Positions 420 to 9,445 of a DNA stretch of 17,847 nt are shown here, one piece after another (position 1 is the stretch's first letter; the number at the start of each line of letters is the position of its first letter). Location: assembly GCA_023255835.1 (NCBI GenBank), contig JAGDVW010000008.1:10327-28173 (forward strand), written 5' to 3'. The notes beneath the pieces are model-generated. The model made no database searches. It was not told the DNA's origin and worked only from the letters and a program-made list of their open reading frames with translations. The stretch is from Candidatus Acetothermia bacterium (GTDB taxonomy: Bacteria > Bipolaricaulota > Bipolaricaulia > Bipolaricaulales > Bipolaricaulaceae). The translations under genes were made by a program, and so were the position numbers.

Positions 420-492
420 GCCAGTGTAGCTCAAGGGGTAGAGCATCCGCCTTGTAAGCGGAAGGTTGCCCGTTCGAGTCGGGCCACTGGCT
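420..492 (+). tRNA. tRNA-Thr (anticodon UGU)
   Basis: The gene folds as a full cloverleaf. The 7-bp acceptor GCCAGTG (420-426) pairs with CACTGGC (485-491), followed by discriminator T at 492. The anticodon loop CTTGTAA (451-457) carries TGT at 453-455 on a stem TCCGC/GCGGA. The T loop is TTCGAGT on a GCCCG/CGGGC stem. The anticodon reads ACA and ACG threonine codons. The 3' CCA is not encoded. It corresponds in position to thrU at the head of the E. coli tufB operon. Confidence 0.97.
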
Positions 493-500
493 CATGTCAC

Positions 501-576
501 CCCAAAGGACCGCAGGGTCCTTTGGGACCCCAAGCCAAAAACCTTGGGGTCCCCAGCTGGCGAAAGCCAGCTGGGG
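501..576 (+). other. Three contiguous perfect hairpins in the tRNA-Thr/tRNA-Tyr spacer
   Basis: Hairpin 1 has the 11-bp stem CCCAAAGGACC (501-511) with 516-526 and loop GCAG. Hairpin 2 has the 8-bp stem ACCCCAAG (527-534) with 543-550 and an 8-base loop. Hairpin 3 has the 11-bp stem CCCCAGCTGGC (551-561) with 566-576 and the GNRA tetraloop GAAA. There are no unpaired bases between them. Hairpin 2 can also extend to 11 bp (524-534 with 543-553) by taking three bases from each neighbour, so the three compete. No T-run follows any of them, which argues against intrinsic terminators. The role is unknown; a precursor-tRNA processing or stability element is possible. Confidence 0.85.
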
Positions 577-581
577 TGTAG

Positions 582-668
582 GGAGGGGTAGCGAAGCGGC
601 CAAACGCACCAGGCTGTAAACCTGGCGGCCTTGGGCCTTCGGGGGTTCGAATCCCTCCCCCTCCACCA
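582..668 (+). tRNA. tRNA-Tyr (anticodon GUA), CCA encoded
   Basis: This is a class II tRNA with a long variable arm. The acceptor GGAGGGG (582-588) pairs with CCCCTCC (658-664), followed by discriminator A (665) and an encoded CCA (666-668). The anticodon loop CTGTAAA (614-620) shows GTA at 616-618 on a CCAGG/CCTGG stem. The variable arm falls at about 626-640, and the T loop is TTCGAAT. It occupies the position of tyrU in the E. coli tufB operon. It starts five bases after the triple hairpin. Confidence 0.97.
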
Positions 669-669
669 C

Positions 670-699
670 TTGCGTTGGCCCAAACTGGTCGGGTAGACT
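670..699 (+). promoter_or_regulatory. Possible secondary promoter before tRNA-Thr(GGU)
   Basis: TTGCGT (670-675) and TAGACT (694-699) are separated by 18 bases, with the -10-like box ending 10 bases before the mature tRNA 5' end. That distance is the same as for the stronger promoter at 381-409. The match to consensus is modest (three and four of six), so the case rests on geometry and on the recurrence of TAGACT upstream of the MFS gene. It could give tuf its own promoter. Confidence 0.35.
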
Positions 700-709
700 C
701 AGAAGCTGG

Positions 710-782
710 GCCCGTGTAGCTCAGTCGGTAGAGCGTCCCGCTGGTAATGGGAAGGTCGCCGGTTCGATTCCGGCCGCGGGCT
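710..782 (+). tRNA. tRNA-Thr (anticodon GGU)
   Basis: The acceptor GCCCGTG (710-716) pairs with CGCGGGC (775-781, one G-U pair), with discriminator T at 782. The anticodon loop CTGGTAA (741-747) has GGT at 743-745, reading ACC and ACU. The T loop is TTCGATT. No CCA is encoded. It sits directly upstream of tuf, as thrT does in E. coli, and the 31-base gap to the tuf start carries only the tuf ribosome-binding site. Confidence 0.97.
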
Positions 783-813
783 CCCTAAGGTCCTAAATTC
801 AAGGAGGTTGGGA

Positions 814-2511: not shown

Positions 2512-3612
2512 ATGCAGCGCAAACGTTGGTACGCCATCCAAACCCATACTGGGTCCGAACTGCGCCTGAAGGAGGAATTGGAGGAGCGGGTGCGCCGGCT
2601 CGGCTGGGAAAAGTATTTCGAGCCCATCAGGGTCGGCGACCGCGAGGAGCTCTTCTTCGTCCCAGTGGAAGAAGTGGTCACCTCCCGCTCTGTGCGGGGC
2701 AGGACCACCGATTATCGTGTTCCCTACGAATACGATCTCCTTGTGGCCAACAACACCCGCATCCAGCGGGGCGAGCTCTTGGCCCGCAAGCCCCCGCGGC
2801 ACCTCCCCGAGGCCGCCGAGGTTTTGTCCGTAGAACCTTATTGGCGGATCACCGTGGAAACTCCGAATCACACGGAGAAAGCTTATCTTGTGCCGCAGAG
2901 CAAAATTTTGCGCCGGGATGTGCGGGTGGGAAGCCGGGTGCGGCCCGGCCTCCCCATGACCGTCGACGCCGATGAGCGCTACTCCTTCGACCAGCAGGGC
3001 GAGATCGTGGCCCGGGAGAAGGTGAAGAAGGTGACCGTGCGCTACGAGTCCGGAAAAGAGGAGGAGCTGATCGTGCCCGAGGCCCTTCTCCCCCCGCGGG
3101 TGCGGGTGGGAGCAAAACTCCCTGCGGGAGCGGAAATCGAACAGGAACATAAAATCTACGCCGGGGCCTCCGGGCTCGTGAAGGTGCGGGAGTACAAGGA
3201 TAAGCGCGTGGTCACGATCCAGCGGATCGAGAAGCGCCGGCTCATTCCGGGCTATGTCTTCGCCAAGATGGGATTGGATGAGGAGCAGATGCGGGAGCTC
3301 GTGCGGGGGCTGGAGCGGGCGGCCCGCTTCGTGGGAAGCCGTACCGCTCCCGTGCCCATCGATGGCCCGGAGGCCACGGTCCTCGGCCGCCTCACCGGCG
3401 GGGTAGCTGCGCCCACGCCCGAGGGCAAGCCCAAGGTGGAGGTGGGGTTCGAGGTGGGCGAGGTGGTACAGATCGTGGAGGGTCCGTTCGCTGATTTCAC
3501 CGGCGAGATAAAGGAGATCGACAAGGAGGCCGAGGAGGCCGTGGTGATGGTGCGGATCTTCGGCCGGGAGACCCCGGTCCGCATAAGCCTCAGCGGGATC
3601 GAGAAGATCTAA
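2512..3612 (+). CDS. nusG: Transcription elongation/antitermination factor NusG with large inserted domain
   Basis: NusG binds RNA polymerase across its cleft and couples it to ribosomes or Rho. At 366 residues it is about twice the usual 180. The N-terminal NGN domain starts at residues 1-57 ([13 protein letters not shown]) and resumes at about 239 with [12 protein letters not shown]. The C-terminal KOW domain covers about 311-366 ([15 protein letters not shown], then FGRETPV). Between lie about 180 extra residues that read as three related repeats of roughly 45-55 residues (about 79-130, 137-191, 197-238), each with a V-x(2)-G-x(4)-G-x(2)-like opening followed by beta-rich sequence. Thermotoga and Aquifex NusG carry an insertion at the same place. 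No strong ribosome-binding site is seen, so coupling to secE is likely. Confidence 0.95.
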
Positions 3613-5296: not shown

Positions 5297-5676
5297 CGAA
5301 GGAAGAGATCATCCAGGCGATCGAGGGGATGACGGTTAAGGAGCTGGCGGAGCTGGTGAAGGCTCTGGAGGAGAGGTTTGGGGTTTCCGCTCAGGTGGCC
5401 GCTCCGGTGGCGGTGGCCGTGGCCCCGCAGCCCGGTGCCGCCGCGCCTGCAGCTGCTCCGGAGAAGACCACCTTCGACGTGGTCATCACCAACGCCGGCC
5501 AGCAAAAGATCCAGCTCATCAAGGTGGTGAAGGACATCACCGGAAAAGGCCTCAAGGAATGCAAGGATCTTGTGGATAACGTGCCGGCTGTGGTGAAATC
5601 CGGGGTCTCCAAAGAGGAGGCCGAGGAGATCAAGAAGAAGCTGGAGGCGGCCGGGGCGGAGGTTCAGCTCAAGTGA
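5293..5676 (+). CDS. rplL: Ribosomal protein L7/L12 (bL12)
   Basis: This 127-residue multicopy stalk protein recruits the translational GTPases. It shows the N-terminal dimerisation helices (residues 1-31), an Ala/Pro/Val-rich hinge (about 33-57), and the globular C-terminal domain with KTTFDVVI and the factor-binding helix [19 protein letters not shown]. The ATG overlaps the rplJ stop as ATGA, and a purine-rich GAGAGGGG lies upstream. Its own stop shares one base with the rpoB start (TGATG), unlike E. coli, where a long spacer with an attenuator and an RNase III site separates rplL from rpoB. Confidence 0.97.
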
Positions 5677-8600
5677 TGGGGACGCGCCGCTTTTATAGCC
5701 GGGTTCGGCCCCGCCTGGAGCCGCCCGACTTCATTGTCCATCAACTGCAGTCCTACGAGCGGTTCCTGCGGGAGGGGATCCCCCAGGTTTTCGCGGAGGT
5801 GAGCCCCATCCGTGCTCCCGGCCGCGAGGATCTCTATTTGGAGCTGGTGGATCCCTATTTGGGCGAGCCCCGCTACGACGAGTGGGAGTGCCGGGATCGT
5901 GACCTGACCTACGCCGCTCCCCTCAAGGCCACCGGCCGCCTCTACGCCGAGGGGAAGCTCCGCCAGGAAGCCGAGCTGTATTTGGCGGACATCCCCCTCA
6001 TGACCCCCAGGGGCACCTTCATCATCAACGGCACGGAAAACGTGATCGTGAGCGAGCTTGTGCGCTCGCCCGGCCTCTACATCACCCAAGATGAGCCCCA
6101 TCTTTTCCGGGCCCATTTCCTCCCTGAACAAGGGGCGTGGCTGGAGATCGAGCTTGATGTGCGCAAGTGGACGCTTCGGGCCCGGTTGGATCGGCGGGCT
6201 ACCGTTCCCGTCACCACTTATCTCCGCGCCCTGGGCCTGGATACGTCCGACATCGTCACCCGCTACTCCGTGGTGGTGCCCGTGGAATCTTTGGACGAGC
6301 TTTTTGAAAAATGGAAGGCCGTGATCCTTGCCGAGTCCATCCCCGCCGGGGATGAGGTGTGGTCGGTGGGCGAGGAGCTCACGCCTCAGCGCGTGAAAAT
6401 TCTGAATCGGCTGGGGCGGGCTCAGGTGCGGGTGGCCCACCCGGCGATCGCCCGCTCCTTCCAGGAGGAGAAGGTGGCCTCCCGGGAGGAAGCAATTCGT
6501 CTCATCTACTCGAAATTCCGCTCCGGGGAGCGGGTGCCCCTTTCCCAGGCTGAGGAGTACATCCAGCGCTTCTATTTCCGGCCGGATACCTACCACCTCA
6601 CCCCCGTGGGCCGGTTCAAGATCAACCGCAAGCTCGGTCTCAACCGGGAGGAGACCTTCCTCACCCCGGAGGACATCTTCGCCGCCCTTCACCTCCTTTT
6701 GCGGGCGCCTGAAGATCCTTCCCTCCTCGATGAGCCGGACCACTTGGCCAACAAACGCGTGCGGATGGCGGGCGAGCAGGCCCAGGCCGCCCTGCGGGAG
6801 GGCCTGGTGCGCATGGCCCGCGTGGCCGAGGACAAACTCATCCACATCGAGCTAGAGGAGAAGGACCTCATCCGCCGCATCGTCTCCACCCGCACCATCC
6901 AAGCCGCCCTAAACAGCCTCTTTTACACGGGGAGGCTCTCCCAATTCCTCGAGCAGACCAACCCCCTCTCTGAACTCACCCACAAACGCCGGCTTTCTGC
7001 CCTAGGGAACGTTGCTCCCGCCGCAAAAAGGGCCAAGGTGGAGATCCGCGACGTCCATCCCTCCCACTACGCCCGCATTTGCCCCATCGAGACGCCCGAG
7101 GGCCAAAATGTGGGCCTCATCACCTCCATGGCCGTTTACGCCCGGGTCAACGAGTACGGCTTTTTGGAGGCGCCCTACGCCGTGGTCAAAGACGGGCGCA
7201 TCACCGGCGAGATCCGTTACCTCATGGCCGACGAGGAGGAGCGCTACAAGATCGCCCCGGCCACGGTGGAGGTGGACGAAGAGGGGCGGATCCTCGGGGA
7301 AAAGGTCCTTGTCCGCACGGGAAGCGAGGAATTCCGCTACGTTTCCCCCAAAGAGGTGGATTTCGTGGAGGTTTCCCCCAACATGATCCTCGGGGTCTCC
7401 GCAGCCCTCATCCCCTTCCTCGAGCACGATGACGCCAACCGGGCCCTGATGGGGGCGAACATGCAGCGCCAGGCCGTGGCTCTCCTCAGGCCCCAGGCCC
7501 CCATCGTGGGCACGGGACTTGAAGCCAAAGCGGCCCGCGATTCCGGGGCCGTGGTCGTCGCCGAAGAGGACGGAACCGTGGTCTACGTGGACGCCCAAAA
7601 GATCGTGGTCAAAGGGAAGAAGGGCCAGAAAACCTATCGGTTGAGGACTTTTGAGCGCTCAAACCAGGATACCGTGATCCACCAGCGGCCCCTTGTGCGC
7701 AAGGGCGATAAGGTCAAAAAGGGCGATGTCCTCGCGGACTCCCAATTCTCCGAGGGCGGGGAATTGGCCCTCGGCACAAACCTCCTCGTGGCTTTCCTCC
7801 CCTTCGAGGGCTTCAACTACGAGGATGCTATCGTGGTCTCCGAGCGCTTAGTGCGGGAAAACATCATGGACTCCATCCACATCCAGGAGTTTGAGGTGCG
7901 CGCCGAGGACACGAAGCTCGGCCCGGAGGAGATCACCGCGGACATCCCCAACCTTCCCCGCTCGGCCATGCGTAATTTGGATGAGCACGGGATTGTCCGT
8001 GTGGGAACGGAGGTGCGGACGGGCGACATTTTGGTAGGGAAGATCACGCCCAAAGGGGAAAGCGAGCCCACGCCGGAGGAGCGCATCTTCCTTTCGATCT
8101 TCGGGGAGCGCATGCGCAATTTCAAGAACACGTCCTTGCGCATGCCGCCCATCACCGGGTCGGCCACGGTGATCCGGGTGAAGAGGCTTTCCCGGGCCGC
8201 AGGCGACGAGCTCGAGGCCGGGGTGAACGAGCTTGTGAAGGTTTATGTGGCGCAAAGGCGCCGCATCGCCGTAGGCGATAAGCTCGCCGGCCGGCACGGA
8301 AACAAAGGGGTCATCTCCGCCATCCTCCCGGTGGAGGACATGCCCTTCCTCCCCGATGGAACCCCCATCGACGTGATCTTGAACCCCTTGGGGGTCCCCT
8401 CCCGGATGAACTTGGGGCAGATCTTCGAAACCAACCTCGGTTGGCTTGCGTATTTGCGCGGGGAGAAGGTGGCCTCGCCCCCGTTCGACGGGGCGAAGGA
8501 GGAGGAGATCCTAAAAGAGCTGACCGAGGAGCTCAAAAAGCGCGGGCTTTCCGACGGTTCCCGCGCGGACGGGAAGGTGATCCTCCGCGATGGCCGAACA

Positions 8601-9002
8601 GGGGAACCCTTCGAGTCGCCGGTGACCGTGGGGGTCATGTACCTCCTCAAGCTCGAGCACATCGCCGCCGACAAGATCCACGCCCGCTCCACCGGGCCTT
8701 ACGCCCTCATCACCCAGCAGCCTTTGGGCGGCCGGGCCCACTTCGGCGGCCAGCGCCTGGGCGAAATGGAGGTCTGGGCCCTGGAGGCTTATGGCGCGGC
8801 CTCCCTCCTCCAGGAGATGCTCACCCTCAAAAGCGACGACGTGCGGGGCCGGGTGGCCTTGTACAAGGCCATCCTCCGGGGCGAGGACTTCCCCCGGCCG
8901 GGGATCCCCGAATCCTTCCGGGTGCTGTGGCAGGAACTCCGCTGCCTTGGCCTCTCCCTCAAGGCCTATGACAAAAGCGGCCGGGAATTGGATATCATTT
9001 AG
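5676..9002 (+). CDS. rpoB: DNA-directed RNA polymerase subunit beta
   Basis: This is the 1108-residue beta subunit, close to the Thermus length and complete to the conserved C-terminus (GEMEVWALEAYGAA). The ATG at 5676 overlaps the rplL stop; a GTG one codon earlier is also possible. Catalytic-core motifs are intact, including EGFNYEDAIVVSERLV (about 710-725) and GDKLAGRHGNKG with Lys869 and Lys877 (E. coli Lys1065/1073). The rifampicin region (about 417-444) is largely canonical but has Glu426 for Asp516 and Arg420 for Gln510 (E. coli numbering). The adjacent fork loop 2 (445-455) is abnormal: NVAPAAKRAKV replaces PGGLTRERAGF, keeping only the Arg equivalent to Arg542 and the following Ala. 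Further changes are Ala in HPSHYARICP and RAHF in place of KAQF. rpoC does not follow; a Nudix gene starts five bases after the stop. Confidence 0.97.
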   Translation: MGTRRFYSRVRPRLEPPDFIVHQLQSYERFLREGIPQVFAEVSPIRAPGREDLYLELVDPYLGEPRYDEWECRDRDLTYAAPLKATGRLYAEGKLRQEAELYLADIPLMTPRGTFIINGTENVIVSELVRSPGLYITQDEPHLFRAHFLPEQGAWLEIELDVRKWTLRARLDRRATVPVTTYLRALGLDTSDIVTRYSVVVPVESLDELFEKWKAVILAESIPAGDEVWSVGEELTPQRVKILNRLGRAQVRVAHPAIARSFQEEKVASREEAIRLIYSKFRSGERVPLSQAEEYIQRFYFRPDTYHLTPVGRFKINRKLGLNREETFLTPEDIFAALHLLLRAPEDPSLLDEPDHLANKRVRMAGEQAQAALREGLVRMARVAEDKLIHIELEEKDLIRRIVSTRTIQAALNSLFYTGRLSQFLEQTNPLSELTHKRRLSALGNVAPAAKRAKVEIRDVHPSHYARICPIETPEGQNVGLITSMAVYARVNEYGFLEAPYAVVKDGRITGEIRYLMADEEERYKIAPATVEVDEEGRILGEKVLVRTGSEEFRYVSPKEVDFVEVSPNMILGVSAALIPFLEHDDANRALMGANMQRQAVALLRPQAPIVGTGLEAKAARDSGAVVVAEEDGTVVYVDAQKIVVKGKKGQKTYRLRTFERSNQDTVIHQRPLVRKGDKVKKGDVLADSQFSEGGELALGTNLLVAFLPFEGFNYEDAIVVSERLVRENIMDSIHIQEFEVRAEDTKLGPEEITADIPNLPRSAMRNLDEHGIVRVGTEVRTGDILVGKITPKGESEPTPEERIFLSIFGERMRNFKNTSLRMPPITGSATVIRVKRLSRAAGDELEAGVNELVKVYVAQRRRIAVGDKLAGRHGNKGVISAILPVEDMPFLPDGTPIDVILNPLGVPSRMNLGQIFETNLGWLAYLRGEKVASPPFDGAKEEEILKELTEELKKRGLSDGSRADGKVILRDGRTGEPFESPVTVGVMYLLKLEHIAADKIHARSTGPYALITQQPLGGRAHFGGQRLGEMEVWALEAYGAASLLQEMLTLKSDDVRGRVALYKAILRGEDFPRPGIPESFRVLWQELRCLGLSLKAYDKSGRELDII

Positions 9003-9007
9003 TTCCC

Positions 9008-9445
9008 ATGGAGGAGCGAGCCGCTGGCCTGATCCTATTTCGGGAAAACTCCGGGCGGCGCGAGTACCTTCTCATTAAAAACCGGCACGGCGGACACTGG
9101 GGATTCCCCAAGGGCCACCTGGAACCGGGGGAGGACGAGCTCCAGGCGGCCTTGCGGGAAACCGCCGAGGAAGTGCACGTGAATCAAGTCCAAGTCCTTC
9201 CAGGCTTCCGCACCGTCGTCCGCTACACCTTTCCCAGGCAGAACGAGCTCGTGGAAAAGGAGGTCGTCCTCTTTTTGGCGCGGACGGAGGAGAAGGGCAA
9301 GCCCTTTCGGAAGGAAGTGGACGAGATGGCTTGGCTTCCTTTTGCGGAGGCCTTGCAGCGCATAACTTTTCCCGAGCAGCGGGAGGCCCTGCGCCAAGCG
9401 GAGGAGTGGCTTGGCACGCATTGGGCTGCCCTCCAAAGTCATTGA
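9008..9445 (+). CDS. Nudix hydrolase, Ap4A-hydrolase-like
   Basis: This 145-residue Nudix protein has the Nudix box at residues 36-58: Gly36, Glu42, Arg50-Glu51 and Glu54-Glu55, which bind divalent metal. The box ends VHV where the consensus has xGU, so the usual Gly is His57. The preceding HGGHWGFPKGHLEPGE resembles asymmetric bis(5'-nucleosyl)-tetraphosphatases, which remove alarmone-like dinucleotides such as Ap4A. The substrate is inferred from that resemblance only. The ATG lies five bases after the rpoB stop, so the gene is almost certainly in the rpoB operon. Its stop region overlaps the convergent antiporter gene by seven bases. Confidence 0.85.
   Translation: MEERAAGLILFRENSGRREYLLIKNRHGGHWGFPKGHLEPGEDELQAALRETAEEVHVNQVQVLPGFRTVVRYTFPRQNELVEKEVVLFLARTEEKGKPFRKEVDEMAWLPFAEALQRITFPEQREALRQAEEWLGTHWAALQSH

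Follow-up and report, generated by a model that had tools for sequence, protein, structure and literature searches.

Fork loop 2 and the CRE pocket of the beta subunit

According to a 2025 review, bacteria strongly conserve fork loop 2 of the RNA polymerase beta subunit (E. coli residues about 534 to 546), and its Arg540 is indispensable for unwinding (PMC12288462). Another review assigns Arg151, Ile445, Asp446, Arg451, Leu538 and Val547 to the CRE pocket for non-template +2G (PMC10911233). Asp446 and Trp183 are described as CRE-pocket residues, Trp183 unstacks the non-template +1 base, and CRE contacts influence pausing and start-site choice (PMC5101437). In a paused E. coli complex Arg542 contacts the +1 pair, and R542A cuts elemental and consensus pausing about twofold (PMC6336406). 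D446A is reported to raise consensus pausing and hampers early RNA extension (PMC5902446). Yeast RNA polymerase I has a pocket in A135 in which fork loop 2 and loop B, through basic residues, hold a flipped +2 base (PMC6435322); this is a different enzyme and would be an analogy of principle only.

The window (the whole stretch of DNA that was analysed, 17,847 nucleotides) carries rpoB for the RNA polymerase beta subunit at 5673..9002 on the forward strand, as identified from its open frame, Pfam and alignments to solved structures. The gene is complete, with an open frame of 1109 codons and a GTG start at 5673, and six RNA_pol_Rpb2 Pfam families score over cut-off in its product, which places it in bacterial RpoB. 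Genes for NusG, L11, L1, L10 and L7/L12 lie 5' of it. The 1.16 Mb draft assembly (83% complete) has one rpoB match only; the possibility that the gene is a paralogue was rejected on this count, and within that assembly it is the single vegetative rpoB copy, located in a ribosomal-protein operon. A preliminary description of this DNA had taken the gene to be intact, part of the ribosomal operon and probably the source of the main beta subunit, and these results agree with it.

Fork loop 2 lies within an 18-residue spacer between HKRR and RDV (LSALGNVAPAAKRAKVEI; 6993..7046, forward strand), established by reading the codons and comparing spacers. The loop itself, NVAPAAKRAKV (7008..7040, forward strand), corresponds to E. 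coli beta 535-545 and occupies the same site as the canonical loop, between THKRRLSALG and RDVHPSHY. It aligns without gaps to PGGLSRERAGF and PGGLTRERAGF in two solved RpoB alignments. The preliminary description had reported NVAPAAKRAKV where bacteria have PGGLTRERAGF, and the codons bear this out; its residue numbers (445-455) were one too low, the loop being residues 446-456 when counted from the GTG at 5673. Like the canonical loop, the window loop keeps Arg542 (Arg453, 7029..7031), the residue of the +1 contact, as well as Ala543 and Glu546. Unlike the canonical loop, it lacks the Pro-Gly-Gly-Leu tip, with Ala448 and Pro449 in the place of Gly-Leu, and has lost the basic residue at 540 (Ala451 for Arg540, 7023..7025). 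Two basic residues are gained, Lys452 for Glu541 (7026..7028) and Lys455 for Gly544 (7035..7037), all on the forward strand.

In the CRE pocket, the window equivalents of Arg151, Ile445, Asp446, Arg451, Leu538, Val547 and Trp183 are Arg131, Pro355, Asp356, Lys361, Pro449, Ile458 and Trp156, respectively. Relative to the pocket of other bacteria, the window thus keeps Arg151, Asp446 (6738..6740) and Trp183 (6138..6140) and differs by I445P (6735..6737), R451K (6753..6755), L538P (7017..7019) and V547I; the coordinates are on the forward strand, and the assignments come from alignment. For recognition of +2G, Asp446 and Trp183 are present and the walls at Ile445, Arg451, Leu538 and Val547 are replaced. 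The loss at 540, the basic gains at 541 and 544, and the pocket changes at 445 and 451 are additions to the preliminary description; among the losses in the loop that at 540 is the most telling, and among linked changes those at 445 and 451 stand out most clearly.

Distribution in Bipolaricaulota and other bacteria

The phylum name Bipolaricaulota rests on the nearest named relative, a Candidatus Bipolaricaulota gene (L132) that stands at 87% to the window over the 78-residue fork region, against 74% or less for the other 79 loci. The phylum sample comprised 100 genomes of one class, of which 98 had an rpoB match and 95 had one covering the fork loop; with L132, which is possibly the same species as one of them, 96 loops were available. 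A readable loop was lacking in G017, G036 and G069, where partial rpoB matches stop short of it, and in G075 and G093, which had no match. None of the 96 loops is canonical. They comprise 30 different spacers, the commonest being LNALGGGLTKRRAKIEV (22 of 96), and the HKRR-to-RDV spacer measures 17 residues in 64, 16 in 25, 18 in five and 19 in two.

The residues within these loops follow a pattern. Position 540 is Lys in 49 genes, Ala in 39, Gln in six and Arg in two, and its loss is independent of gap placement because twelve Ala540 loops equal Lys540 loops in length. Position 541 is basic throughout (Arg in 80, Lys in 16), and 93 of the 96 loops have Lys at 544. All 96 retain Arg542 and 95 retain Ala543, so the survival of both residues that had been noted for the window extends to the phylum; Glu546 is also kept, and Leu538 is retained in 54 loops. 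Every phylum loop carries a net charge of +3 to +5 over residues 535-545. In the pocket, Arg451 is Lys in 96 of 96 genes, and the Ile445 position is Lys in 73, Thr in 13, Pro in eight and Arg in two. Asp446 is retained in 96 of 96 and Trp183 in all 91 genes with a letter there (five have gaps), and Arg151 is replaced by Ile in four of 91 with a letter. As judged from alignment, the changes of the phylum cluster on a known functional site, the CRE pocket.

Length changes of the loop were read by parsimony, by eye, on a FastTree phylogeny of RpoB from which the loop had been excluded. In our reading, a spacer of 17 residues was probably ancestral in the phylum and appears to have lost one residue in a 27-tip subclade of the family to which the window belongs, giving 16; five of the eight members of the window's genus, the window included, would then have gone from 16 to 18. 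Separate changes from 17 to 16 in three genomes of another family (f6) and from 17 to 19 in two genomes are read in the same way. Because of these changes on the RpoB tree, the 18 residues of the window would be a secondary regain, two residues added after two shortenings, rather than an inherited length. Among the eight RpoB proteins of the genus, the loop holds the sole indel between residues 26 and 1104; codons 446-447 (window 7008..7013, forward strand) are missing in three of the eight, and the tips read NVAPAA, TVAAAA, GVAAAA and SPAA. Two other genomes of the genus (L002, L004) have a loop identical to that of the window.

The outside sample consisted of 204 rpoB genes, 79 in a named set and 81 and 44 in two further sets, five of the 44 (L372, L377, L384, L386 and L410) being read by eye; the sets are unevenly spread, may share species, and in the named set are biased to query-like sequences. 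Seven outside genomes had no rpoB match (G100, G141, G147, G154, G365, G373 and G411), the first four of them with no match to the rpoB family model either. The spacer is 18 residues long in 203 of the 204 genes, the exception being L291 of genome G223 with 15. Judged from match coordinates with a check by eye, the 78-residue region has no net gap in 279 of the 282 outside genomes that matched. The other three are G189 (L283), in which the spacer has 18 residues and the extra one comes downstream of it, and G223 and G292, which belong to one class and are true exceptions. Among the bacteria sampled, fork loop 2 hardly varies in length, and two lineages were found to break this rule. The claim that length is conserved is correct against the bacterial norm of 18; it fails within the clade, where the spacer varies from 16 to 19 and the window's 18 is read as a regain of two residues. 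A comparison across phyla, which the preliminary description had proposed, places the variant in one clade.

The class of G223 was then sampled because it was exceptional (class loci L291, L298-L303 and L304-L326, outside the 204 except L291); 31 of its 35 genomes matched and 30 were read. Seven have spacers of 15 residues (VVAVVREKKRAGFEV type), a subgroup without GEGG at the tip, and 23 have 19 (GEGGVKERKRAGFEV type). Like Bipolaricaulota, this class has an independent change of fork loop 2 length, R451K and a basic residue at 541; unlike them, it has a basic residue at 540, Ile445 and, mostly, Gly544, and its short form is the one without GEGG. Its rpoB and rpoC are mostly one frame of about 2500 codons. 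The Campylobacterota-type loop GEGGLVKERAGF (L145, L157 and L175; L220 has the same loop) resembles the phylum in Lys540 and Arg445, and once in Lys451, and differs in its length of 18 and in retaining Gly-Gly-Leu and Glu541.

Single positions also separate the phylum from other bacteria. Every one of the 204 outside genes has Arg or Lys at position 540 (202 aligned, L384 and L386 by eye), and position 541 is Glu or Asp in most. At 445, 189 of 202 have Ile or Val, and seven of 202 have Lys in place of Arg451. The net charge of 535-545 ranges from -1 to +3 outside (+1 in 136 of 159, +3 in seven). Of the 210 columns around the loop, 61 reach 90% conservation or more across 81 outside genomes, and five of these 61 are lost in the phylum: 354 (D444E), 361 (R451K), 416 (F505L), 451 (R540) and 467 (G556). 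An earlier scan against the 79 named sequences had given 41 phylum-lost columns and was superseded by the 81-genome sample, the named set being rich in Proteobacteria.

The Bipolaricaulota loop is, by these comparisons, a real, phylum-wide variant of a core enzyme element that is linked to the CRE pocket. Among the titles and abstract openings listed by searches of open-licence papers, none concerns natural fork loop 2 variants of Bipolaricaulota, a weak indication that the variant is undescribed. Position 540 is Ala or Gln in 45 of 96 phylum genes, against the described indispensability of Arg540, and the phylum offers a natural experiment that can tell the needed fork-loop contacts from the others.

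Co-variation with residue 451 and possible explanations

Coupling between the pocket and the loop was tested outside the phylum, with four ways of flagging departing loops. Among 160 outside genes, no other of the 59 conserved columns is associated as strongly with a basic residue at 544 as Arg451, and columns 359 and 354, in the same segment, rank second and third. In the 81-genome set alone, Arg451 is first of 41 both for basic 544 and for a non-canonical core; when loops were flagged by a residue other than Arg at 542, column 422 came first and column 361 (Arg451) second. A follow-up set of 42 aligned genes had been picked as weaker matches before their letters were seen, and its single R451K occurs in the same gene as its single basic 544 (L404); neither change is seen in L384 and L386, which were read by eye. 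For all outside genes combined, discovery set included, 544 is basic in five of seven R451K genes and in three of 194 Arg451 genes (Fisher p 4e-7), a value that ignores kinship and draws on few lineages, with one gapped gene set aside, L265 and L285 sharing a family and L230 and L404 looking alike. The class of G223 is a counter-case, as it has R451K and yet keeps Ile445 and mostly Gly544. A 451-544 contact was not readable in an AlphaFold2 model of isolated beta built with 31 phylum sequences, in which pLDDT is below 50 at residues 422-488.

Our main reading, to which we give a probability of about 0.5, is that fork loop 2 and the CRE pocket were remodelled jointly in the main RNA polymerase of the phylum in a way that would alter pausing or start-site choice. 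The Pro-Gly-Gly-Leu tip is shortened and variable, 540 is mostly Lys, Ala or Gln, and 541 and 544 now carry basic residues. The loop and the pocket probably touch and may have evolved together. Because Arg542, Asp446 and Trp183 are kept, a working loop and pocket are expected; because 445, 451, 538, 540, 541 and 544 are changed, the holding of the non-template +2 base would be altered, with weaker base-specific and stronger charge-based contacts. The tip is not the driver everywhere, since 54 of 96 phylum loops keep Leu538. The enzyme would then differ from those of E. coli and Thermus in its preference for G at non-template +2. Through this, the lifetime of open complexes, consensus pausing and the choice of start sites could all change; pausing that depends on Arg542 is expected to continue. 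The preliminary description, from the window alone, had suggested that strand separation, pausing or inhibitor binding may be affected, and such an effect is plausible. Cells of this phylum may transcribe DNA and pause on it in ways that differ from textbook bacteria.

A wider generalization, which we put forward tentatively and would not bet on, is that +2-base sensing is set by a co-evolving module made up of fork loop 2 and the CRE pocket, which was re-tuned in Bipolaricaulota and, to a lesser degree, in a few other lineages. If so, the phylum would offer a natural RNA polymerase with altered or absent +2G recognition and a different pausing and start-site code. Whether the loop and the pocket are linked in pausing and in the choice of start site becomes testable, and the variant matters for inhibitors that have fork loop 2 in their binding sites.

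Relaxed constraint is a possible but doubtful alternative. Under it, Pro535 was lost, Arg540 became dispensable and the tip drifted harmlessly, leaving Arg542, Asp446 and Trp183 alone to carry function. Variation of the tip even inside the genus fits this, as does the replacement of Arg542 in 17 of 202 outside genes, which indicates that single fork-loop contacts can be lost. Among 1102 overlapping 7-residue windows of the genus RpoB proteins, ten are less conserved than residues 446-452. Drift does not account well for a pattern that is held across the phylum, with basic 541, Lys544, Lys451 and the charge of +3 to +5 invariant or nearly so, nor for the recurrence of the 451 and 544 changes together outside it. 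An error of sequencing, assembly or reading frame might be suspected in a window that comes from a single draft genome of limited completeness, and it is refuted by the identical loop in two other genomes, the 96 of 96 non-canonical loops and rpoB matches without internal stops; the absence of a frameshift had been correctly recognized at the outset.

Two selective explanations were also weighed against joint remodelling of loop and pocket. Escape from a natural RNA polymerase inhibitor of the rifamycin or streptolydigin type, whose site includes fork loop 2, is improbable. It would fit the altered rifamycin region of the phylum (window 6933-6953, forward strand, from the 210-column comparison), in which Q510R occurs in 95 of 96 genes, M515L and D516E in all 96 and S531N in 30, the window itself keeping Ser531. 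It would also fit the frequent loss of Arg540, which according to a preprint lines the pocket and contacts rifamycin B (PMC13404664), and the description of fork loop 2 as part of the streptolydigin site (PMC5101437). Against this, the usual residue at 510, 515 and 516 is found in only 71, 65 and 71 of 81 outside genomes, so these positions vary elsewhere too. To our knowledge, CRE-pocket residues 445 and 451 belong to neither the rifamycin nor the streptolydigin site, and we counted this against inhibitor escape. Electrostatic adaptation to heat or salt, in which added positive charge near the downstream DNA would hold the duplex and the bubble edge, is very improbable. The high loop charge and Lys445 in 73 of 96 phylum genes are consistent with it, but the canonical loop of an outside gene that we take from its sequence to be Thermus-like (L263) speaks against it. 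In its favor, literature titles and abstract openings place the phylum in geothermal and hypersaline sites.

The rpoC gene and the neighborhood of rpoB

In rpoC, bridge-helix Leu783 is replaced in 36 of 36 phylum genes (Thr in 28, Ala in six, Asn in two; L126-L131 and L062-L091), and residues 779-783 are described as the bridge-helix hinge (PMC4029172). Residue 783 is Leu in 59 of 59 named outside genes. In a wider sample, it is Gln, Ser or Gly in six of 28 outside genomes, two of them with canonical and four with departing fork loops; fork loops depart in four of six genomes without Leu783 and in five of 22 with it (p 0.06). Because residue 783 is also changed in these six genomes, it was not counted as a specific partner; there may be a weak link of bridge-helix 783 to fork loop 2. 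Ser793Ala marks one family of the phylum (f1; 22 of 22 f1 rows and none of the 14 others) and was dropped as a specific partner, as 793 is Ala in many outside genomes with canonical loops. The trigger-loop segment is essentially canonical, with one phylum row reading MRTHH and one MKTFH; few outside loci reached that far. Of the two places in which the preliminary description had proposed to look for compensating change in rpoC, the bridge helix shows a change that is not specific, and the trigger-loop segment shows essentially none.

Several other features of the locus were observed. A NUDIX gene (window 9003-9445) directly follows rpoB, and rpoC does not appear to be adjacent. In all 39 phylum genomes for which rpoC was matched, the two genes are apart: they lie on different contigs in 37 and, on the same contig, about 669 kb apart in G011 and 500 kb apart in G021. 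RpoB residues about 196-258 (window 6258-6446) are not covered where the protein aligns to the two best solved beta subunits, and among the RpoB proteins of the genus conservation is lowest in 7-residue windows that start at residues 189-206. NusG (window 2512-3612) has 366 amino acids and an extra domain, NusG_add. It matches the solved NusG chain 2xhc_A, presumably from Thermotoga maritima, along nearly its full length. Genes for tRNA-Thr(TGT), tRNA-Tyr and tRNA-Thr(GGT) lie at window 420-785, before tuf, and a tRNA-Trp gene lies at 2224-2299, before secE.
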